Source: Candidatus Hatepunaea meridiana (GTDB taxonomy: Bacteria; Electryoneota; AABM5-125-24; Hatepunaeales; Hatepunaeaceae). From it: a stretch of 51,203 nucleotides of DNA. Positions 1-48,199 of the stretch are shown here, one piece after another (the first letter of the stretch is position 1; every line of letters starts with the position of its first letter). The position numbers and the translations under genes were made by a program. Under the pieces are notes generated by a model, which saw only the letters and a list, made by a program, of their open reading frames with translations, ran no database searches and had not been told where the DNA came from. The stretch covers positions 1 through 51,203 of the forward strand of contig JAVCDD010000355.1 of NCBI GenBank assembly GCA_030765125.1, read 5' to 3'.

Positions 1-24
1 AACCATCATTTTACTGGATATTAA

Positions 25-114
25 CCCCTTTTTGTCATTCCCGCGAAGGCGGGAATCCAGGAGAAACAATAAGTTATCTGGATTCCCGCCTTCGCGGGAA
101 TGACAAAAAAGGGG
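25..114. repeat. Palindromic element, GTCATTCCCGCG type (copy 1)
   Basis: An inverted repeat with arms at about 25-60 and 78-114 and a loop of about 17 nt. The core GTCATTCCCGCGAAGG is shared with the copy at 27619-27702. The outermost CCCCTTTTT/AAAAAAGGGG part is palindromic here but is not shared with the other copy. It is a dispersed REP/MITE-like hairpin with no coding content. Confidence 0.85.
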
Positions 115-154
115 CTTTCCGGTCAGAAACTAAATAGGGAATTGATATAGTCGT

Positions 155-5370: not shown

Positions 5371-7296
5371 ATGAAAACCAATCAATCCATTCACGATTTT
5401 AATCCACGCGCAGCCGGTTTTCGCTGCGGGTTGGAAATTCACCAGCAACTTTATACTGAAAAAAAACTGTTTTGCCGATGTCCGGCAGGATTATATTCTA
5501 ACGATTATGATGCCCAGGTTCTAAGACACATGCGACCGACACTCTCCGAACTCGGTGAGTATGACGGAACCGCCTTGATGGAGTTCAAGACTAAAAAGGA
5601 AATCATCTATCGCCTTAATAAAAAATCCGTCTGTACTTATGAAATGGATGATACGCCACCGTTCCCCATCAACCAGAAGGCAGTGGATATTGCTATCGAA
5701 ATAGCTCTGCTACTCAATTGTGCAATTGTCGGTGAACTCCATGTTTCTCGTAAACAATACCTTGATGGCTCGATTCCTGCTGGTTTTCAACGCACGGCTA
5801 TAGTCGGAGTAAATGGATGGATACCTTACAAGGATCGAAAGATCAACATCATCCAGCTTGCCATAGAAGAGGATGCCTGTCGCGAGGTATCGGATGTAGG
5901 TCATCTCCGCGTTTACGCCACCGATAGATTAGCAATGCCCTTAATAGAAGTTGTAACTGCTCCGGATATGCTGGATCCGCAAGAGTCTTATGAGGTTGGT
6001 GTGCAATTGGGCAGATTGTTGCGTGCTACCAGTAAAGTACGACGCGGCATCGGCAGCGTCAGGCAGGATGTGAACGTTTCAGTAACAGGGGGCACGCGAG
6101 TTGAAATAAAGGGCGTCCCGCGATTACCACTCATTCCTGATTTAGTGCACTGGGAGGCTTGCCGTCAATATTCTCTTCTTGGAATGCGAGAGGAAATGAA
6201 AGAAAGGGGAATTAAGCAGGACAATCTTGAATCCGAGAGGTTCGATATTACAGGTCAACTTAGTCATCCCGCAATCGCCAGACTGTCGGATGATTCATTC
6301 AAGGTGTCCGCAATACTCTTAAAAGGATTAAGCGGCTTATTAGTTCACAAGATAGGTTTTGATAGGACATTTGCTGACGATGTTGCCGGGCGTGTCAGGG
6401 TTATCGCCTGCCTTCAGCATAGACCAGTTATGCTGCATAGTGACGATACTTCAGTGTCTGGTTTTTCTCAACGTGATTTGGAATTGTTATCTTCAATCAC
6501 AGGCAGAGGAAAGGATGATTTGGTTGTAGTTGTTTGGGGACCTATGATTGACGTGGAAACAGCGCTGAATGAGATCGAAATCCGCTTCAAGGAAGCAGCG
6601 GACGGTATACCAAACGAAACACGACAGGTGTTATCAACCGGAGAGACAGATTTTGAACGCATCCTTCCTGGTCCGAACCGGATGTACCCCGATACCGATT
6701 CTCCGCCTATTGTAATTTCAAGCGACCGAGTAGCAGCTATCAGGAAAAAACTGCCTGAATTGCCTTGGGATAGAGAAAAACGTTACAAGGAAATGGGAAT
6801 CCCGCATCATCTATCATGGATGCTGGCGATCTCACCACGCGCGATTCTCTTTGACAAATTGACATCAAATAATGGTGTCGCACCAAAGCTGACAGCAGTT
6901 GTTCTAATTGAACTGATTAAACATTTCAATAGGCTGGGAGGAAATCCGGATTCTATAAGCGACTCTGATTTGGAAGCGCTCTTTTTATTATATCAAAAAG
7001 GAGCTTTCAGCAGGGAAGGATTCAGGCTTTTGATTGAAGGACGTGCTCATGAAAAAGATGCTGACTGGATGAGGATAGCGGATAAAATTGGTATTAGAAA
7101 AGTTGACAATAAAGAGATTAAGGATGCTATTGAACGGATGGTTGTATCATTAAATGATAATGGTACCGTTGATGATGATCTTAAAAATAAAGTGGCGATG
7201 GGGCTGGTTATGAAGGATTTCAGAGGGTGTGTGCCGGGGGTAGATCTGGCACAGATGGTTAGTGAGTTTTTCAGTGGGTCAGACACTCCTGTCTGA
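5371..7296 (+). CDS. gatE: Glu-tRNA(Gln) amidotransferase subunit E (archaeal-type GatE)
   Basis: GatE is the tRNA-binding, kinase/transamidase subunit of the GatDE complex, which converts Glu-tRNA(Gln) to Gln-tRNA(Gln) in archaea. The 641-residue length fits GatE, not the roughly 480 residues of bacterial GatB. The cradle domain (1-285) has GLEIHQQL at 20-27, Cys35 and Cys37 of the metal site, and RPTLSELGEYDGTAL. An AspRS-like GAD insertion follows at about 290-410 (RFDITGQLSHPAIARL), then GIPNETRQVL, ILPGPNRMYPDTDSPP, and a helical/YqeY tail. It starts with ATG and has a weak ribosome-binding site. The last residues (SGSDTPV) and stop are encoded by a repeat element, so the native C-terminus has been rewritten. 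No gatD lies nearby, and glnS is present in the same window. Confidence 0.9.
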   Translation: MKTNQSIHDFNPRAAGFRCGLEIHQQLYTEKKLFCRCPAGLYSNDYDAQVLRHMRPTLSELGEYDGTALMEFKTKKEIIYRLNKKSVCTYEMDDTPPFPINQKAVDIAIEIALLLNCAIVGELHVSRKQYLDGSIPAGFQRTAIVGVNGWIPYKDRKINIIQLAIEEDACREVSDVGHLRVYATDRLAMPLIEVVTAPDMLDPQESYEVGVQLGRLLRATSKVRRGIGSVRQDVNVSVTGGTRVEIKGVPRLPLIPDLVHWEACRQYSLLGMREEMKERGIKQDNLESERFDITGQLSHPAIARLSDDSFKVSAILLKGLSGLLVHKIGFDRTFADDVAGRVRVIACLQHRPVMLHSDDTSVSGFSQRDLELLSSITGRGKDDLVVVVWGPMIDVETALNEIEIRFKEAADGIPNETRQVLSTGETDFERILPGPNRMYPDTDSPPIVISSDRVAAIRKKLPELPWDREKRYKEMGIPHHLSWMLAISPRAILFDKLTSNNGVAPKLTAVVLIELIKHFNRLGGNPDSISDSDLEALFLLYQKGAFSREGFRLLIEGRAHEKDADWMRIADKIGIRKVDNKEIKDAIERMVVSLNDNGTVDDDLKNKVAMGLVMKDFRGCVPGVDLAQMVSEFFSGSDTPV

Positions 7297-7517
7297 CTCG
7301 TTGGATGTTGGACAAGAGTGTCCAACCTACTGTATTGTTGGACAAGAGTGTCCAACCTACTGTATTGTCGGACAGGAGTGTACAACCTACTGTATTGTCG
7401 GACAGGAGTGTACAACCTACTGTATTGTCGGACAGGAGTGTACAACCTACTGTATTGTCGGACAGGAGTGTCCAACCTACTGTATTGTTGGACAAGAGTG
7501 TCCAACCTACTGGAAAT
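7270..7517. repeat. 30-bp tandem array of hairpin units
   Basis: After one forward unit (7273-7300) come seven copies of a 30-bp unit (GTTGGACAAGAGTGTCCAAC plus CTACTGTATT) starting at 7307, 7337, 7367, 7397, 7427, 7457 and 7487. Outer copies have perfect TTGGACA/TGTCCAA stems. The central four read TCGGACA, and three of those end in TACAAC, so the stem is imperfect there. The array has no spacers, so it is not a CRISPR. The first unit overlaps the end of gatE. Confidence 0.92.
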
Positions 7518-7592
7518 CTGGGGACAGTATACCTATTTTATAAATATCTGATGTTTTCAAGGACATAAGATAAAACAGGTATACTGTCCCCA
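7518..7592. repeat. Palindromic GGGGACAGTATACC element (copy 1)
   Basis: A 75-bp inverted repeat with ends CTGGGGACAGTATACC/GGTATACTGTCCCCAG, immediately after the tandem array. Copies 2 and 3 lie at 24701-24787 and 26499-26592. It resembles non-autonomous REP/MITE elements and carries no ORF. Confidence 0.85.
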
Positions 7593-7628
7593 GGTTTTCT
7601 AACCTGCTTTAATAACTTGAGGATTATA

Positions 7629-19980: not shown

Positions 19981-20077
19981 CAGACCGCTTAATAGTATAA
20001 ACGTTGCTGTCAGGTTACTCCCGAAGGTTCGGGATTGAAACCCGACAGCAACGCAATTTCAACTATTAAACAGTCTG
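19981..20077. repeat. Nested palindrome
   Basis: The outer arms CAGACCGCTTAATAG and CTATTAAACAGTCTG enclose inner arms CGTTGCTGTC/GACAGCAACG, which enclose CCCGAA/TTCGGG. It sits in the gap 19916-20138, where I see no gene or clear promoter. Confidence 0.8.
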
Positions 20078-21053: not shown

Positions 21054-24000
21054 CATTAAGTTGACATCTGTTGTTTTGAGCCTCATTGTTGCTGTATCAG
21101 TACCGGTTTCAGTAGGTTGGACACTCCTGTCCGACAATAACGTAGTAGGTCGGACACTCTTGTCCGACAATAACGTAGTAGGTCGGACACTCTTGTCCGA
21201 CAATAACGTAGTAGGTCGGACACTCTTGTCCGACAATAACGTAGTAGGTCGGACACTCTTGTCCGACAAAGATGGAGTCAGACAGGAATGTCCGACCTAC
21301 CCGTCCGATGAAGAGACTAATCTTCCTCTGGGTGGTGGCTGGGTGGAAATGGTTGCTGTTGTACCTGATAGTTTTATCATACATATAGATGATCCGTGGG
21401 TGTTAGTCAATAGCATCATTATTCTGCTGAACGACAGTCTGCTGAAGCATGATGTAGATTATTTCCGGAACGATTCACTTCGAACTATAGAAATCCTACC
21501 CAAAAGTTCCATCCTTCCAGGAACGAAACTATTACTGAAATATCAATCCGCCGCAATACTGGATACCCTTGTATTCCAGCGCTTTCATCCATTCATCGAA
21601 GACAGTGTTTCTGATTCATCAACCGTCATCAACCCTAAGCATTATAAACGCTACTTGAAACCGTTCGATAAATGGCGAGGACTTCGTCGCTCAGGATCAA
21701 TAACTCGTGGAATACGTTTCGATCAGGATGGAACAGGTGGCGTAACGTCCGGTCTACACCTCGAATTATCCGGCAGACCAACGACGGGCGTCAAGATAGA
21801 CGCAATCCTCGACGATCGCGATATGCCTGCTTCAGCAAGCGGCGCCTCAGCCAGCCTCGCCGAACTGGATCGGTTGCTCTTTCAAGTACGAACACCTCAT
21901 CTTTTTGCCCGGCTTGGCGACTGGGATATAGACTGGAAGAATGGACGCTATGGATCATTCTCCCGGCGTTTGAAGGGAGGTAACGTTGCAGTCGAATATC
22001 CCAGGTGGCGCGGGGAAATAGCTGCTGCAGGCGGGAATAATGCTTATATGACTACTCGCTTCAATGGTCGTGACGGAGATCAGGGACCTTACGAACTGAC
22101 AGATAAGCTTAACCGACCGGGCATTGTAGTCGTTTCAGGTTCTGAGAGAGTCTATCTTAACGGGGAACTTCTCAAGCGAGGACGACGAGCTGACTATGTG
22201 ATTGATTATGCACACGGCGGGATTACCTTTAATCCGAAGTGTTCTATCCGTTCGGACTCACGCATTGAGGTTGAATATGAGTATAACGACCAGGGTTATC
22301 CGCGTTATTTCTATGCCGTCGATTTGAAAACGCACGGCACATCCGGCTATGCGCGAACGCTTCTGTCCGGTTTAATACCCGGATTTACTATTGAAGCGTT
22401 CACTGCTATGGAAGGTCGTGACACGGAACACCCGTTGACGTTTGAGTGGACGGATCCTTGGCGTGATATTGCTAATTCTGCAGGTGATGACCACTTAAAA
22501 GCTTATGTATCGGGAATTGATTCGGTGGGTATTGGCTTAGGTGATTATATCTGGGAAGTTATCGGTGTCGATAGTATACTGGTATTTTCGCAACCGGATT
22601 CACTCGGACGCCCAACCGGTTATCTAAGGGTTGAGTTTTCCCGCCAACCAGGCGGTGGATACCGGCGCGAATATGACGCAGACCTGCACGCGTACTATTT
22701 CCAGTTTGCTGGAGTGGATTCCGGGGATTGGGTGCCGGTTCAATACCTGCCGCTGCCTGATAAGGTAAGTCTTACCGCTGTTAATACTACTTATAGAAAC
22801 GGTGCATTGAGAATAACAGGCGAGGCAGCTATATCCAACTATGACCGCAATACTTTGTCAACTCTTGACGATGATGATAACACCGGTACAGCATTGAATT
22901 GGCGCTGCTATTGGAATCAGGCGGATAATGATATGTTGGCTCTGACAGCTTCAGTTCGTCGGGAGGACAGCAAATTCCATTCGTTATCGCAGGCTGCCGA
23001 TGTCGATCGGCAATATAAGTGGGATCTGACTGAGGACACCACATTTACAGAGACAGAAATCGAAGCGGGAATTAATCTGAAACCGTACCAATTCCTTAAA
23101 TTATCAGCGGATGGTGGCTATCTGGAACGGGGCAATCTATTTGATGGTCAACGTTATCGGTTTAATGCTGATTGGGATCTACCGTTCCTGATTCTTGCTT
23201 CGCAATACAACCGAACAGAAGGAGATTATCCGCTTGCTGATAAGAAGAGCGTTAGAACCAACTACTCCGGAAAAGCAGCTCGAAAACAGGGTATGTGGCG
23301 TCCTTCATATCTGTTTAAGTATGAGAAACGAGAGATAAGCGGATCCCCTTATGAGACAGGTTATAAGCGCCTTGAACATGAAACAGGTTTGGGTATAATT
23401 CCATCTCAAAGACAGGAAGTCAACCTGATCTTTGCTTATCGAAGTGATGATAATCTTATTAAGAAAAATTCTGACCACCAATCAGATACTCGATCTGTTA
23501 AAGGATCCTGGCGCGGACGAGGTCATCGCTGGGGGGGATGGTATGTGGATCTGCTCAGGTATTATCAAACGTTTACGGATACTCTCCAACCGGTGGTATC
23601 AACTTCAGCAGCCTTACAAACGACAGTATCTCCGCCGAATTCACAATGGAATCTGCGCGTTGACTATGGATTGAGCACCGGCAGCGACCGCGCAGGCGCT
23701 CAGATTGCCAGTTACGTTGGTGAAGGAAACGGCAGCTATCGCCGCGAGGAAAATCGCTACGTTCCCGATCCGGACGGGGATTTTGATCTACATGAAGTAG
23801 TGACTGATACGCTGCATCAGGTAAGTAGAGTGAATTTCACCGGACAAATCAGATGGAATCCGCGAAAACGCAAACACCAGGGAACTCAACCGGAAACGTA
23901 CCCACTTGGAATAACCGGATTGAACAGTCGTTTTGAGGCGGATATAAATACAACTTCCGATGATCCCTGGCAGGCGTTTCTGCTATACCCGCCTGAATTC

Positions 24001-24657
24001 CGCACTTCAGAAGTTGTGTTTGCCCGACGAACCTGGCTGGAGGAGCTCTACTTCCTCGAAGGTGATCCGGTTGGTGACGGTAAGCTTTCCTTCAGACGCA
24101 GTGTAGATAGAGATCGAACTCTATCAGGCGGCGAAGAGGCAATCCTTGATAGAATCAGTTTTAGACTCAGGCTCCGTTCGGGATTGGGTCTAAGACTCCA
24201 GATTACACCTTCCTATCAGCATAATCTGCGCAAGGGTATCACCACCGGAGAAACAAGATCGGATGTCAATGGTTTAGGCAGTGATTTCCTTTTAACGTTC
24301 AGACAGCCGCAAGGTAATATCGAATATAGTATGACTTATGGTTTTGAACAGCGTGAAGACCGAACTTCTGAAATAACAGTCAAAGAGCAACGCATCAACC
24401 CAAGATTGATATGGACAATTGGACATAAGGGGACAGCTCGTTTTGAAGGTGGATGGCGCGGATTGACGTCGAGCGCTGAATCACCTGGGTATGATCTGAC
24501 ACAGAGTTGGGCTGTGGGGAACAACTGGACGCTGGACGTCGGGTTTGATTATAACCTCAGCACACACGTAATGGCTACGGCATATTATCGCGGTCTATGG
24601 CGAGGGGATAACCGCCCTCGGAACAGCGGGTTGATTGAATTTACGGCGAAATTATGA
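21046..24657 (+). CDS. Large predicted outer-membrane beta-barrel protein
   Basis: A 1203-residue exported protein. The leader (about residues 1-22) is a signal peptide. The body is rich in alternating aromatic/polar strands with Arg/Tyr, as in large outer-membrane barrels. A segment near residues 360-425 (GSERVYLNGELLKRG, ADYVIDYAHGGITFNP, RIEVEYEYND) resembles modules I associate with SprA-like proteins of the FCB group; the function is unknown. Residues of about 22-85 are translated repeat: five copies of VGxTLLSDNNV followed by an inverted unit. Its stop overlaps the ancestral ATG of the next gene (ATGA at 24654), suggesting translational coupling to the Omp85 gene. Confidence 0.75.
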   Translation: MNDIKLTSVVLSLIVAVSVPVSVGWTLLSDNNVVGRTLLSDNNVVGRTLLSDNNVVGRTLLSDNNVVGRTLLSDKDGVRQECPTYPSDEETNLPLGGGWVEMVAVVPDSFIIHIDDPWVLVNSIIILLNDSLLKHDVDYFRNDSLRTIEILPKSSILPGTKLLLKYQSAAILDTLVFQRFHPFIEDSVSDSSTVINPKHYKRYLKPFDKWRGLRRSGSITRGIRFDQDGTGGVTSGLHLELSGRPTTGVKIDAILDDRDMPASASGASASLAELDRLLFQVRTPHLFARLGDWDIDWKNGRYGSFSRRLKGGNVAVEYPRWRGEIAAAGGNNAYMTTRFNGRDGDQGPYELTDKLNRPGIVVVSGSERVYLNGELLKRGRRADYVIDYAHGGITFNPKCSIRSDSRIEVEYEYNDQGYPRYFYAVDLKTHGTSGYARTLLSGLIPGFTIEAFTAMEGRDTEHPLTFEWTDPWRDIANSAGDDHLKAYVSGIDSVGIGLGDYIWEVIGVDSILVFSQPDSLGRPTGYLRVEFSRQPGGGYRREYDADLHAYYFQFAGVDSGDWVPVQYLPLPDKVSLTAVNTTYRNGALRITGEAAISNYDRNTLSTLDDDDNTGTALNWRCYWNQADNDMLALTASVRREDSKFHSLSQAADVDRQYKWDLTEDTTFTETEIEAGINLKPYQFLKLSADGGYLERGNLFDGQRYRFNADWDLPFLILASQYNRTEGDYPLADKKSVRTNYSGKAARKQGMWRPSYLFKYEKREISGSPYETGYKRLEHETGLGIIPSQRQEVNLIFAYRSDDNLIKKNSDHQSDTRSVKGSWRGRGHRWGGWYVDLLRYYQTFTDTLQPVVSTSAALQTTVSPPNSQWNLRVDYGLSTGSDRAGAQIASYVGEGNGSYRREENRYVPDPDGDFDLHEVVTDTLHQVSRVNFTGQIRWNPRKRKHQGTQPETYPLGITGLNSRFEADINTTSDDPWQAFLLYPPEFRTSEVVFARRTWLEELYFLEGDPVGDGKLSFRRSVDRDRTLSGGEEAILDRISFRLRLRSGLGLRLQITPSYQHNLRKGITTGETRSDVNGLGSDFLLTFRQPQGNIEYSMTYGFEQREDRTSEITVKEQRINPRLIWTIGHKGTARFEGGWRGLTSSAESPGYDLTQSWAVGNNWTLDVGFDYNLSTHVMATAYYRGLWRGDNRPRNSGLIEFTAKL
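21109..21300. repeat. 33-bp tandem array translated in frame
   Basis: TCAGTAGGTYGGACACTC units at 21112, 21145, 21178, 21211 and 21244 (exact 33-bp period), then an inverted unit GTCAGACAGGAATGTCCGAC ending CTAC at 21300. The period is a multiple of three, so the host reading frame is kept through the whole array. The foot is read as TCA GTA, which avoids its TAG. Confidence 0.95.
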
Positions 24658-24663
24658 AAAAAT

Positions 24664-24817
24664 CAGTAGAAGCGACACTCTTGTCGCTTGAACCATCGAG
24701 AAATAGGGGGACAGTATACCTATTTTTCTATAGACCGTCGGTTATTCTATGAATGCTTATAAAAATAGGTATACTGTCCCCCTATTTCCTCAAGCGACAA
24801 GAGTGTCGCTTCTACTG
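24664..24817. repeat. Nested palindrome: REPIN-like pair holding a GGGGACAGTATACC element
   Basis: The outer inverted pair CAGTAGAAGCGACACTC...TTGTCGCTT (24664-24689) and its complement (24792-24817) has a GAAGCGACA stem subtype. Between them is copy 2 of the GGGGACAGTATACC palindrome (24701-24787, perfect 27-bp arms). The whole element interrupts the start of the Omp85 gene. Confidence 0.92.
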
Positions 24818-26485
24818 TTCTTTATTGTTTTCGTTTGGTTTAATAACACATTACTCGTTGCTCAAACAGACATTCCACCAATTACTCATATAGAATTTAT
24901 CTGTTCCGCTTATGATAACAATGAACTTTGCTTATTCGCTGACACACGATCAACATTAGATAATATCGAAGAACTGCCTGACGTTCTTGATCGTCTTTAT
25001 CGTTCACTCACTCAAGAAGGATATCCATTAGCGAGGCTCGATTCTATAACTAACAGATATAGTGATAAAGGCAGCATTCTTGATATCTATATCTCTACAG
25101 GAAAACCGTTTAAGTTAGAATCGAGCAGATTAATCGGCTATAAAGATGATATTACTGAAATAACACCTGTTTCAAGGTTGACATCAGTTAAACTTTTAAA
25201 ACAGGCGGAAGAACTCCTTGATGAAATGACGGATAACGGTTATCCATTCGCAAAGGTGACAATAACTCCCAATCATATTCAGGAACAGGAAAAATTAATA
25301 TCTGCAAAGATAGACTTTAATGTTGAGAAAGGATACTTCACTCGAATTGGCGACGTTGAATTCCCGGGGGCTCGGTTAACAAGTAAGCGGCTGCTCCGTC
25401 TGGAGAGCAGGTTACGGAGCGGCGAAGCATTCAGCCGTTCCGAACTCGAGCGTGCGGTTGAAAGATTGGAAAGGCTGCCTTATGTTGCTTATGTTGACGA
25501 TCCTCGTCTTCTGAAAGAGGGATATAACGTTGTAGACATCCACATTCCGATTGAGGAACGACGGGTAAATCAGCTTTCCGGTGTGCTTTCTGCGGCGCCC
25601 GGTGAGGCAAAACCAACAGGTGAATTTAAGATACAATTCGGAAATATCCTTGGAACCGGTCGGAAACTGCGACTGGAATGGTTAGGGCTTGATCCATCAC
25701 GGCGTGGGATCCAGGTCAGTTACCGAGAACCGTGGATATTGAGTCATCCTTATCACGCAACGGTTGAATTCGAGCAATGGATTGAGGATACACTCAGCGC
25801 AACCACCCGGTATAAATCAACTCTTGAGTGGGAACCGTCGTACCGCTTGACCTTTTCAGGCTCAATTGCAAGCGAGTATATCAGCGGCAGTGACAGCGCC
25901 GTAACGGATATCGGTTCTCACGCAATCTGGCTGCAGGGAGGTATTAAGTACAACAGCTTCGATAATGACTGGAATCCGACACTCGGTTTCAGTGCCGGTA
26001 TCAGTTCCGCTTCTGCCGTAAGATATTGGCACGATGGGGCCCGTGGATCAAGTCGTTTAAGGCGGGATGAGGCGTCGGTGGCGTATGTACGATCAATCTA
26101 TCATAATCTTATTCTGTTTGAGCGTTTAGGATTTAGTGATATTTCGGGATCCGGTGTTGTACTGGAAGAATTAACCAGACTGGGGGGGATTGGTTCCGTC
26201 AGAGGATATGAGGAATCGAGCATTCTATCGCGCGGCGCTGGATGGGCTGCGATTGAACTGCGCTGGCGTCCCGACAATGAAAGCTACCTGGGGCTGTTTA
26301 CTGATGTAGGCTATGCTTATCGTGTGGATCCACGCATCAAACCGCGAAAGGAATTTCCCCTTTCATTCGGAATAACCGCAATGATGCTCACCAAGGCGGG
26401 AAGATTAGGCTTGGATTTAGCTCTTGCAGAAGGGGAAGCTTTTCAGAATGCCCGATTGCACCTGCGGTTGGAAGGGTGGTTTTGA
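24749..26485 (+). CDS. Omp85/BamA-TamA family outer-membrane protein
   Basis: A 578-residue Omp85 protein that inserts or exports proteins at the outer membrane. Three POTRA-like units are visible (about 40-115, 120-190 and 190-260; the last includes RLRSGEAFSRSELERAVERL). A 16-strand barrel follows, with the family signature GGIGSVRGYEES and an aromatic C-terminus (LEGWF). The present start ATG lies inside a repeat, and the first 20 residues (NAYKNRYTVPLFPQATR) are translated repeat, followed by a usable hydrophobic leader. An upstream ATG at 24654, overlapping the previous stop, is closed by a TGA at 24750. Removing 155 bp would join ATG AAA AAA to TTC TTT ATT and give a standard signal peptide. 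Confidence 0.88.
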   Translation: MNAYKNRYTVPLFPQATRVSLLLFFIVFVWFNNTLLVAQTDIPPITHIEFICSAYDNNELCLFADTRSTLDNIEELPDVLDRLYRSLTQEGYPLARLDSITNRYSDKGSILDIYISTGKPFKLESSRLIGYKDDITEITPVSRLTSVKLLKQAEELLDEMTDNGYPFAKVTITPNHIQEQEKLISAKIDFNVEKGYFTRIGDVEFPGARLTSKRLLRLESRLRSGEAFSRSELERAVERLERLPYVAYVDDPRLLKEGYNVVDIHIPIEERRVNQLSGVLSAAPGEAKPTGEFKIQFGNILGTGRKLRLEWLGLDPSRRGIQVSYREPWILSHPYHATVEFEQWIEDTLSATTRYKSTLEWEPSYRLTFSGSIASEYISGSDSAVTDIGSHAIWLQGGIKYNSFDNDWNPTLGFSAGISSASAVRYWHDGARGSSRLRRDEASVAYVRSIYHNLILFERLGFSDISGSGVVLEELTRLGGIGSVRGYEESSILSRGAGWAAIELRWRPDNESYLGLFTDVGYAYRVDPRIKPRKEFPLSFGITAMMLTKAGRLGLDLALAEGEAFQNARLHLRLEGWF

Positions 26486-26498
26486 TTGTTGTATTGCT

Positions 26499-26592
26499 GG
26501 AAAATAAGGGGACAGTATACCTATTTTTTCTATGGTCTGTCGTTATTATAAAGAGTATTTATAAAAATAGGTATACTGTCCCCTTATTTTCC
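26499..26592. repeat. Palindromic GGGGACAGTATACC element (copy 3)
   Basis: 30-bp arms beginning GGAAAATAAGGGGACAG and ending with the complement, between the convergent Omp85 and DUF2520 genes. The flank next to the shared core (GGAAAATAA/TTATTTTCC) is palindromic but differs from the other copies. It may serve as a bidirectional terminator. Confidence 0.88.
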
Positions 26593-26606
26593 ACAACGCC
26601 ACAACA

Positions 26607-27467: not shown

Positions 27468-27571
27468 TTTTCTATCTGCTTAATCCGTTTAATCTGCTGT
27501 GAATTATAATCCAAACTCCAAGCTAAAGCTTGAACTCTGAACTTGCTACTTGCTATATTAACAGAATATCA

Positions 27572-27727
27572 ATGATTCTGTTGAAAAAGTCAATTATTAC
27601 AGAATATCCTTCTTGTTTTGTCATTCCCGCGAAGGCGGGAATCCAGAGTTTTCAAGTATTTAAAGCTCTTAAAACTGGATTCCCGCCTTCGCGGGAATGA
27701 CAATAGGAAGTATTTCAACAGAATCAT
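27572..27727. repeat. Nested palindrome with GTCATTCCCGCG element (copy 2)
   Basis: The inner element 27619-27702 has arms TGTCATTCCCGCGAAGGCGG.../complement, as at 25-114. It lies inside an outer inverted repeat ATGATTCTGTTGAAA (27572-27586) / TTTCAACAGAATCAT (27713-27727). The gap 27468-27816 otherwise shows no gene. Confidence 0.88.
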
Positions 27728-27816
27728 CAATATGTTTATAAAATATGTATTGTAAACATATACATACATTACTACATTATAAGGTTAATGTCAAGAATAA
27801 AAAAACATTAAAAACT

Positions 27817-42535: not shown

Positions 42536-45500
42536 ATGTTAAGGAATCGTTTTTCTGCGGTTTTGTTGCTTCTTTCACTTCTTTTCATAGCAACCTGCCC
42601 AATTGCTGCTACCCAAGCAGCACATTCTGTCAACCACAACGAGTTGACAGCGGTATCGGTTGATCTTATTCAAGATAACCTCTTTGCAACCCGTCTCACG
42701 TTCAATGTTGACGAACTCGATCATCAACAGGTTGACATCAACGGTCAATCGTTCGACAAGTTCTCCATTGACGGTGAACTGACTATCGCTCAAGAAGGGT
42801 ACCCCGATCTACCCTGTGTATCGCGGATGATCCTCATTCCACCTCAAAGCGACGTCAAACTTAAAACAAACCAGATCAAATCCCACATCATCCAGGATGT
42901 TAATCCGATCCTGTCAGCTAATCTCGATAACAGTGATAAGCCCTGTATTGCCAAAGATCCCGATTATGCACGACACGAAGGTTTTTGGCCCCCCCAGCCC
43001 GTTGTAATTGGTAAGCCAGCCATTATGCGAGGGATTAGGATGGTGAGTGTAACCGTTTTTCCGATGCAGTATAACCGCTCTACAGGTCAGATGTGCGTCA
43101 ACGAGGAACTGGATTTCGAGCTGACCTACACAGGAATCGGTGAGAACATCGTTGCCAATCCCGAGCGCAACGTAAAGACACCGATGTTTAACAGGATTAT
43201 CAGATCGCTGGTTGAAAATCCGCCCACGCCCTCAAGGGATGACCCGTCAACTCAGGGTTCTATCCTTTACGTTACCGGGAATTGGGATGATGTTGTTGAA
43301 CGTCTGGAACCGCTTGTTGAATGGCGCAGACGGATGGGGTGGACAGCGGAAATCATTCGTGTTCAAAGTAATGGAGATCCGAATGTGATCAAGACTGCAA
43401 TCCAGGAGGCTTATGATGAATGGGATGTCCCTCCGGAATACGTGGTTATTTGCGGTCAGGGAAGAAACGGTCGTAATTTTTATATGGCTTGGTTTAATGA
43501 ACGTCACGGCGCTGACTACCCTTATGAATGCGATCATCACTATGGTGAACTTGAAGGTGATGATGTATTGCCGGAAGCTGCTATTGGCAGGCTTCCATTT
43601 CAGACAACCGAAATGCTAAGTGGCGTTGTTGAAAAGATAATTAATTATGAATCAGACCCTTATATCGGCGATGACGAGGAAGAGGGATGGCAGAAAAGAG
43701 CCGCAGTAGCAGCCGCGGATCCGCGTAGCGGACTATCTACTAATGACGTAAGCCGCTGGGTGAAAAATCTACTTTTACGCCACGGTTATGATGACGTTGG
43801 CGAGTTCCGCTTTCAAGGTAACCCAACCGATTTTATTAATAGCCATATCCAGCAAGGTATTAGTTTTTTTACTTTCAGAGGTTGGTATTTGATGAATGGA
43901 TTTCATTGTGACAATGTTGATAATTATAGAAACGGTGGAATGCTTCCCCTGGTTATACTTGCTACCTGTAATACCGGTGACTTTGCAGAGTTCCATTGTG
44001 ATAATCATAGCTATACAGAGAGATTTATTAACAACATTAATGGCGGCGCCATTGGAGCTATCGGAGCCGCAGGCGGCACTCACACACCCTACAACAATCT
44101 GATCATAGCCGGAACTATGCGAGGGATATTTGCAGATGAGATAACGACGCAAGGCTGGGCGTTAATGCGCGGAAAGCTTGACCTCTATCGAAACTATGAA
44201 GGCAGAGGCGACATCGCCCACCCCGAAAACCACGAACAGGAAAGCTGGTTGACGTCAACCTATATCTATAACCTGATGGGCGACCCTGCTGTTGATCTTT
44301 ACACCGATACACCCAGAGAATTGATCGTTGAGCATCAAGAAGAAATTAATTGCGGCGCAACTTGTTATGCTGTGCACGTTGCTTATGCTGATGACGAGGA
44401 AGACGCTGAGGATATTCGGGTTTGCCTCTATCAAGCCGATGTATTTCAGGTTGTCGGATATACCGATGAAGATGGAATGGTTGTTTTTAATCCGGATAAT
44501 GAATGGATTGACGATGGTGAAGTTATGCTGACCGTTACCGGACATAACCTGATGTCCTACCTTGCTGACATTGAGATCATTGATGCTGAGATGTTCATCG
44601 GAGCAGGTGAATGGGAGATTGAAAACGATGACGACGGCGCTAATCCAACCGATGAACTGAACATAACCGTCGAAATCGTCAACTATGGCGAGGAACAACC
44701 TGAAGGGGAACTATCATTGGTTCTCTCTACCGATCACCCGCAGCTTGAGGTTTTCGAAGCTGAGGCAAACCTTGACCAAGCCCCCCGACCCGGTGAAACC
44801 CTTGAAACGGACTTCTGGGTGCGGATAGGCGGAGGCTTCCCGGATGGTGGAAATGCTGTGTTTAACGTAACGGTAACTTGTGGAGATGTTGAATGGGTAA
44901 GTTCTATCAGCATTCCTGTAGAGAGTCCCAACCTTGAATTCAGCGAATTAGAATGGGTAGATGAACCGCTCGAACCGGGTGAAATGGCGGAAATGAGCAT
45001 TACTATCCAGAACATAGGATCGACTGCTTCCCCTGCATTAACGGCAACTTTAATAAGCCTGACACACACGGTAAGAGTAATTGGACAGGAAGAACAATTT
45101 AACCGGATTGATGTAGGTGAAAGCCAGACTTCAGAAGGCGCCTTTCGACTGAACGCTAACGGTCTTCATATCGCTGGTTCCCCAGCAGATTTCATACTTG
45201 TATTTGAGGCTGAAAACGGTTTTACGGACACATCCCGCTTTTCACTTGTAATAGGCGAAGCAGTTGAATCGGATCCGTTTGGTCCGGACAGTTACGGTTA
45301 TATATGCCTCGACAATCAGGACGAGGGTTGGTTTTCCACTCCAGAGTTCAACTGGCTCGAAATTGATCCGAATGAGGACGGCGATGGTGAAGATACGGAA
45401 CTTTCAGATACAGCAGAAGAAGACGACGAGAGTGTTCTGTTAGATCTGCCGTTCAGTTTTACGTATTACGGTGAGGAATTCGATCAGATAACAGTCTGCA

Positions 45501-47952: not shown

Positions 47953-48199
47953 TAGTCCGGATTCGATAAATCCGGACTACTATACCATCATTCCACAATT
48001 CTGCAATAACGCAATCGGTTATGCCTTTAGCTCAGCAATGTATAAACTTAATAACACCGGAGTAGCGAAGCTTGCTACGCGTCCACTTAATAATACCGGA
48101 GTAGAAAAGCTTGCTGCATTCTTGTACGGTGGCGCATGCGTGTCTGCCTGCGAGCGCGCAGCAAGCTACGCTACTCCGGATGAGCTAAAGGCATAACCT
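47953..48199. repeat. Further palindromes, including a nested CCGGAGTAGC element
   Basis: AGTCCGGAT/ATCCGGACT at 47954-47981. Then outer arms GGTTATGCCTTTAGCTCA (48017-48034) and its exact complement (48181-48198) enclose three CCGGAGTAG-type units (two forward at 48058 and 48097, one inverted ending 48180). The gap 47711-48215 holds no gene. Confidence 0.88.

Follow-up and report, generated by a model that had tools for sequence, protein, structure and literature searches.

Short mobile hairpins belonging to several families abound in the genome analyzed here, and the palindromic flanks that seem private to individual copies are mostly the ends of the hairpins themselves. The element with GGGGACAGTATACC arms, which we term F0, is probably a non-autonomous mobile palindrome of about 90 bp with a TIRYT-type terminal-repeat pair, whose arms are homogenized by template switching, the real nesting of one palindrome in another being a second and separate process.

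The window, i.e., the whole stretch of 51,203 nucleotides under analysis, is contig C135 of a 5.31-Mb genome (382 contigs, 92% complete) in which many families of short palindromic repeats are present. Exact matches to the F0 arm number 228 genome-wide. The F0 set comprises 118 two-armed copies with their surrounding DNA, to which large parts of the big contigs were added; the resulting statistics cover 1.52 Mb of the 5.31 Mb in a sample enriched for F0 neighbourhoods, and tests of flank pairing were carried out on the 116 F0 copies with usable flanks. The empty sites used throughout are paralogous.

Extent and boundaries of F0

All of the inverted repeats named in the original prediction (viz. 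the GGGGACAGTATACC element in three copies, the second of them with its outer pair, two GTCATTCCCGCG elements, and the repeats at 19981 and 48017) are present in the window where it placed them. The three F0 copies are as follows.

7512..7599, no strand assigned: F0 copy 1 (core 7520-7591, paired arms 7514-7597), CT-end subtype, with a decayed right end (AAATCT/AGGTTT)
24699..24789, no strand assigned: F0 copy 2 (core 24707-24781, paired arms 24700-24788), AG-end subtype (GAAATAG/CTATTTC), inside a REP pair
26500..26591, no strand assigned: F0 copy 3 (core 26508-26583, paired arms 26498-26593), AA-end subtype (GAAAATAA/TTATTTTC)

As a single strand, copy 2 folds with a z of -11.5. Outside the 14-nt core, the flanks of the 116 copies are highly complementary at positions -1 to -8 and at chance level from -9 (0.28 against 0.33 expected at -9 itself), and from -9 to -26 the largest z is 1.9, which is not clearly above chance. 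Since flank pairing is confined to positions 1-8, what looked like flanks private to each copy belongs to F0 itself, as its ends. These ends have one strong consensus, GGAAATAn (168 non-redundant ends), and F0, which extends 8 nt beyond the core to the GGAAATAn end, is about 90 bp long. The extra matching bases at -9 and -10 of copy 3 are no more than chance would give.

It had been proposed that F0 habitually enters the centres of existing hairpins, the palindromic flanks being the arms of the older target hairpins. The position of copy 2 between inverted REPs agrees with this, as does the recurrence of F0 beside hairpins in two other repeats. However, the 116 copies show no flank complementarity beyond chance past -8, a strong outer inverted repeat (score >= 30) beyond that position is found in 1/116 copies only, namely window copy 2, and the ends at -1 to -8 follow the single strong consensus given above. 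This reading is thus largely refuted for F0, 115 of the 116 copies being without a strong outer repeat, and as a general habit of the element we regard it as very improbable. Most of the examples offered for it, those of F0 included, are refuted in one of two ways, the copies lying in non-palindromic flanks or the inner and outer parts travelling together.

An outward extension of the palindromy past -8 was also rejected, runs of 9-10 in the F0 flanks being about as frequent as chance predicts. The longest flank-pairing run is 14, at locus L077, with a chance probability of about 1.5% by our own arithmetic. When the threshold for outer inverted repeats was lowered to 24 and redundant flanks were removed, 0 F0 copies reached it (0.3 expected). 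A target duplication was likewise rejected, as no offset or length yields direct repeats beyond those due to the palindromic ends themselves, and a short target motif adjoining F0 was sought and rejected. Tandem GTAG-REP arrays are located in the window at 7272-7512, where the array directly abuts F0 copy 1, and at 21145-21300, with periods of about 30 bp and 33 bp, respectively.

Covariation of the F0 arms

The copy-specific character of the F0 ends is real and exceeds chance. Complementarity between the two arms of a copy is 0.88, 0.95, and 0.85 at positions -1, -2, and -7 (116 copies), whereas exchanging the right flanks among copies gives 0.36, 0.75, and 0.49 (z of 12.3, 10.8, and 9.0). 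The arms of one copy thus change together, and it is because of this joint change that the ends of each copy resemble private palindromic flanks. A rough tree of the F0 copies requires a minimum of 16, 7, and 24 paired changes at these three positions, a count of independent changes that is inflated by errors in the tree, as it was built on about 74 nt.

At the sibling loci L053 and L058, the F0 elements are the same over about 92 nt save for a paired difference at -7 (G.C vs. T.A). The paralogous loci L107:2502 and L107:5773 have matching flanks up to F0 but opposite loop orientations and different pairs at -1 (A.T vs. T.A). Arm homogenization and spacer inversion are reported as marks left on inverted repeats by template switching (PMC8604942). 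We suggest that replication template switching between the F0 arms would be the main cause of their covariation, one arm being copied onto the other and the loop sometimes being flipped, to which selection for a good hairpin may add. The proposal that flanks are copied into inverted form comes close to this behaviour, with the difference that the copying would take place inside the element only and no outward extension is seen.

Could the F0 arms covary solely through selection for pairing, for single-stranded DNA transposition or for RNA stability, with no part played by template switching? Compensatory changes are common in REPIN arms and have been interpreted as hairpin selection (PMC3116915), and a mismatch at -1 in 12% of F0 copies is what a two-step path predicts. 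However, such selection does not predict the inversion of a loop at a paralogous site (L107), and the otherwise identical siblings L053 and L058 differ by one paired double transversion only. Selection at the RNA level, sought in the form of a wobble bias, was rejected: G.T and A.C mismatches in the F0 arms are about equal (30 and 32), which shows no bias of an RNA strand and lends such selection no support. We therefore hold selection as the sole cause to be possible but doubtful. It is less likely still that the differing ends go back to several old source elements (AA, AT, AG, and CT/TT subtypes), each of which has spread. Loop and end types are indeed correlated, in that most CT and TT ends are found with loop type B, but the end types are scattered over the copy tree with the many paired changes at -1 noted above, and siblings that share a site have unlike end types (L107) or an unlike base pair at -7 (L053/L058). 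Template switching is accordingly the better-supported, but unproven, cause of the covariation. The case for it consists of two sibling sets and one ambiguous set, and the paired changes could also come from two selected mutations or from conversion by another F0 copy.

Relationship of F0 to TIRYT elements

TIRYTs are TIR-associated HUH/Y1 tyrosine transposases with their TIRtron families (Di Nocera et al., 2013; PMC3733652), corresponding to TnpA-REP subclass 2.1 (Quentin et al., 2018; PMC6006769), and their terminal repeats carry the motif GGGGWSAS (PMC3733652) or GGGG[AT][CG]A[CG] (PMC6006769). The F0 end GGGGACAG fits both forms of the motif, and almost every one of the 118 copies has it in each arm. 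Among named genomes that were scanned, the 20-nt F0 end was identified also in Gammaproteobacteria, Desulfospira, and Qipengyuania; a scan of a genome collection with a longer F0 pattern yielded no match. In two loci from other bacteria (L209 and L213), the 20-nt end lies 50-70 nt upstream of the start of a Y1 transposase, the gene being intact in L209 (237 aa) and truncated in L213, and in L207 it lies upstream of an apparently decayed Y1 gene. The L209 protein scores above the Pfam Y1_Tnp cut-off and below the NCBIfam REP transposase cut-off. No inverted copy of the F0 end was seen downstream of the Y1 gene in L209, L213, or L207. Two-armed F0-like elements with differing loops are present in gammaproteobacterial MAGs (L204:6402 and L216:2733).

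F0 resembles TIRYT/TIRtron elements in its GGGGWSAS motif, its inverted "dimer" layout, the absence of a target duplication, and, on the upstream side only, the placement of its end at Y1 genes elsewhere. It differs from them in its number of copies (about 118), in the arm covariation and loop inversion documented here, and in that no cognate TIRYT was found in this assembly, so that the mobility of F0 here is one that we infer. The genome has five Y1 matches, none of them close to L209 (best 31% identity) and none with F0 directly beside it; the source transposase of F0 is absent or unassembled. F0 is not a REPIN in the sense of Bertels and Rainey (2011; PMC3116915), as the GTAG tag is missing at the foot of its hairpin and its ends read GGAAATAn instead, and it lacks the direct target duplication of a MITE.

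F0 junctions in host repeats

Shared junctions of F0 in a few host repeats suggest, on sequence comparison, either hot spots or a displacement of hairpins. In the latter case F0 would supplant a resident hairpin by inserting at its foot, with the loss of 16-45 nt of target. In comparison with paralogs, repeat C lacks 16 nt at CGTAGG|, a tRNA gene lacks about 26 nt, and the spacer of the REP pair lacks about 19 nt; F0 stands after the same junction in 12/25 copies of repeat B and 12/29 copies of repeat C, in a sample biased to F0, and in repeat B it does so in both orientations with no clustering on the copy tree. A small hairpin is present in most of the unoccupied copies of the two repeats. 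Against displacement, these comparisons rest on paralogs, not orthologs, the right-hand junctions vary between copies, the unoccupied B copies differ beside the junction, the sample favours F0, and hitch-hiking or recombination between F0 copies could look alike, as at L060, which joins B to C. Displacement of resident hairpins is thus an unlikely reading. The broader scheme in which F0 moves in this way into a small number of host repeats and into a tRNA gene (16-45 nt removed, the same junction used repeatedly and in both orientations), its arms then being kept identical by template switching, we likewise consider to have a small chance of being correct.

Two of the loci concerned merit description. 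At L109:1346-1440, F0 stands in place of about 26 nt from the 5' part of a tRNA-like gene, and about 230 bp downstream (L109:1669-1742) lies a paralogous tRNA gene that is intact and has a similar region upstream of it. At L060:2454-2590, F0 is bordered by half of repeat B and, at its opposite end, by half of repeat C, an arrangement resembling the product of recombination between two F0 copies.

F0 copy 2 within an F4 REP pair

One instance in the window bears out the proposed insertion into the centre of an existing hairpin, viz. F0 copy 2, which is flanked by two F4 units.

24664..24691, + strand: left F4 REP unit, CAGTAG tag followed by the hairpin AAGCGACACTCTTGTCGCTT
24790..24817, - strand: right, inverted F4 REP unit, forming a REPIN-like pair with the left unit, the usual short spacer being largely replaced by F0

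Among 20 comparable F4 pairs, 19 are without F0 and span 76-119 nt, compared with 150 nt for the copy 2 pair, in which part of the usual F4 spacer is lost. Copy 2 is hence a real nested case, the outer hairpin of which occurs alone at paralogous loci. Loci with only the outer hairpin, as had been called for, were thus recovered in paralogous form and not in orthologous form: no orthologous empty F0 site was detected among 60 relatives, nor in a set of 38 further genomes from the phylum, the two sets largely overlapping.

The F4 family shares with REPINs and GTAG REPs (PMC3116915) a CAGTAG tag with a hairpin, inverted pairs with short spacing, and the presence of these repeats on both sides of a RAYT gene, as a Y1 gene (Y1_Tnp) at C381:43168-43407 lies between F4-family pairs at 42944 and 43542. 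The regions C381:34864-36265 and 42944-43662 contain two Y1 (RAYT) genes, each found beside its own GTAG-tagged palindrome family (GTAGCCCGGCTTC.. and GTAGATGCGACAC..).

The F4 pair with its F0 (window 24654-24823) is situated at the 5' end of an open reading frame (24749-26485), whose listed ATG lies inside the F0 loop and whose frame crosses the right arm of F0 and the right REP. With this start located within F0, mobile DNA may supply the N-terminus of the protein. Another ATG in the same region overlaps the stop of the upstream gene, just before the left REP.

MITEs F23 and F36 and other composite repeats

The remaining repeats of the window that had been read as nested are listed below.

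27573..27726, no strand assigned: F23 MITE of 154 bp with TIR TGATTCTGTTGAAA and an inverted GTCATTCCCGCG pair inside (27618-27703)
27569..27572, no strand assigned: left copy of its target duplication (TCAA, 4 bp)
27727..27730, no strand assigned: right copy of its target duplication (TCAA, 4 bp)
1..131, no strand assigned: F36-type MITE with TIR AGTGTCTGACCGAAAA, cut on the left by the contig start, with a GTCATTCCCGCG pair (25-113) and right TIR TTTCCGGTCAGAAACT (116-131)
19981..20077, no strand assigned: inverted repeat CAGACNG..CTTAATAG enclosing a GTTGCTGTC hairpin (nested)
48014..48198, no strand assigned: F2, one composite family of 185 bp with outer arms GGTTATGCCTTTAGCTCA and inner arms CCGGAGTAGCGAAGC

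GTCATTCCCGCG-like repeats are widespread. In this genome, the flanks of GTCATTCCCGCG are inverted-complementary in 54% of cases against 13% when swapped, an excess due to GTCATTCCCGCG being the inner part of the MITEs F23 (TGATTCTGTTGAAA) and F36 (AGTGTCTGACCGAAAA). The supposed nested insertions at 25 and 27572 are not borne out, as their inner and outer parts travel together as F36 and F23 in units of mostly fixed length (144-145 and 154-156 bp, respectively). A 4-bp target duplication is present in 18/22 full-length copies. In their TIRs, nearly fixed lengths (~155/145 bp), and direct, AT-rich 4-bp duplications, F23 and F36 are similar to the classical bacterial MITEs (cf. NEMIS, RUP, and ERIC), from which they differ in that both carry the inverted GTCATTCCCGCG pair. 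The repeat at 48017 is similarly a single family (F2), whose near-full-length copies number 7 or more (about 93-96%). That at 19981-20077 has several partial relatives in the sample. An F17-containing element at C253:26007-26220, with CAGACNG ends resembling those at 19981 and a GAAA duplication, is located in the small loop of one GTCATTCCCGCG arm.

Insertion into hairpin loops

Insertion into hairpin loops, as originally envisaged, does exist in this genome, and it is seen outside the window for F23 and F36. Of 22 copies of these MITEs, 5 lie in the loops of other palindromes (F0 2, F10 2, F12 1) and 0 in arms, and in all five loop cases the host element regains its full length when the MITE is taken out together with one target duplication. 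Among AT-rich intergenic sites, 7.1% are in loops and 6.5% in arms; 1.6 loop hits are expected, and the binomial probability of 5 or more is about 0.017 by our own arithmetic. This modest excess may be explained by AT-rich loops combined with AT-rich target choice. Real nesting is a process apart from arm homogenization, in which members of several mobile palindrome families insert into each other, F23 and F36 entering the AT-rich loops of F0 and other hairpins with 4-bp duplications.

In other F0 loops there is a REP pair, at L079 and L120 (likely the same composite), or a further hairpin, at L112, and by a rough estimate the loop insertions seen with F0 as host are similar to the chance expectation in intergenic DNA. 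Three-level nests are present at L083:2497-2740 (F0 > F23 > GTCATTCCCGCG, target duplication TAAA) and at C259 (L194):10011-10256 (F10 > F23 > GTCATTCCCGCG, target duplication TTAA). Some IS elements are known to target REPs for insertion (PMC3733652), and here too mobile DNA lands in palindromic repeats; in contrast to those IS elements, the inserting elements are small non-coding palindromes for which no strict site specificity is shown.

Significance

These results correct the view that a copy with palindromic flanks of its own must have inserted into a hairpin, and they also provide clean cases, bounded by duplications, of one mobile palindrome within another. More generally, this genome constitutes a natural record of the evolution of short mobile palindromes, in which more than 100 copies of one hairpin expose paired arm changes and loop inversion at paralogous loci, and it bears on the question of whether the perfection of hairpins arises via selection or via replication template switching.
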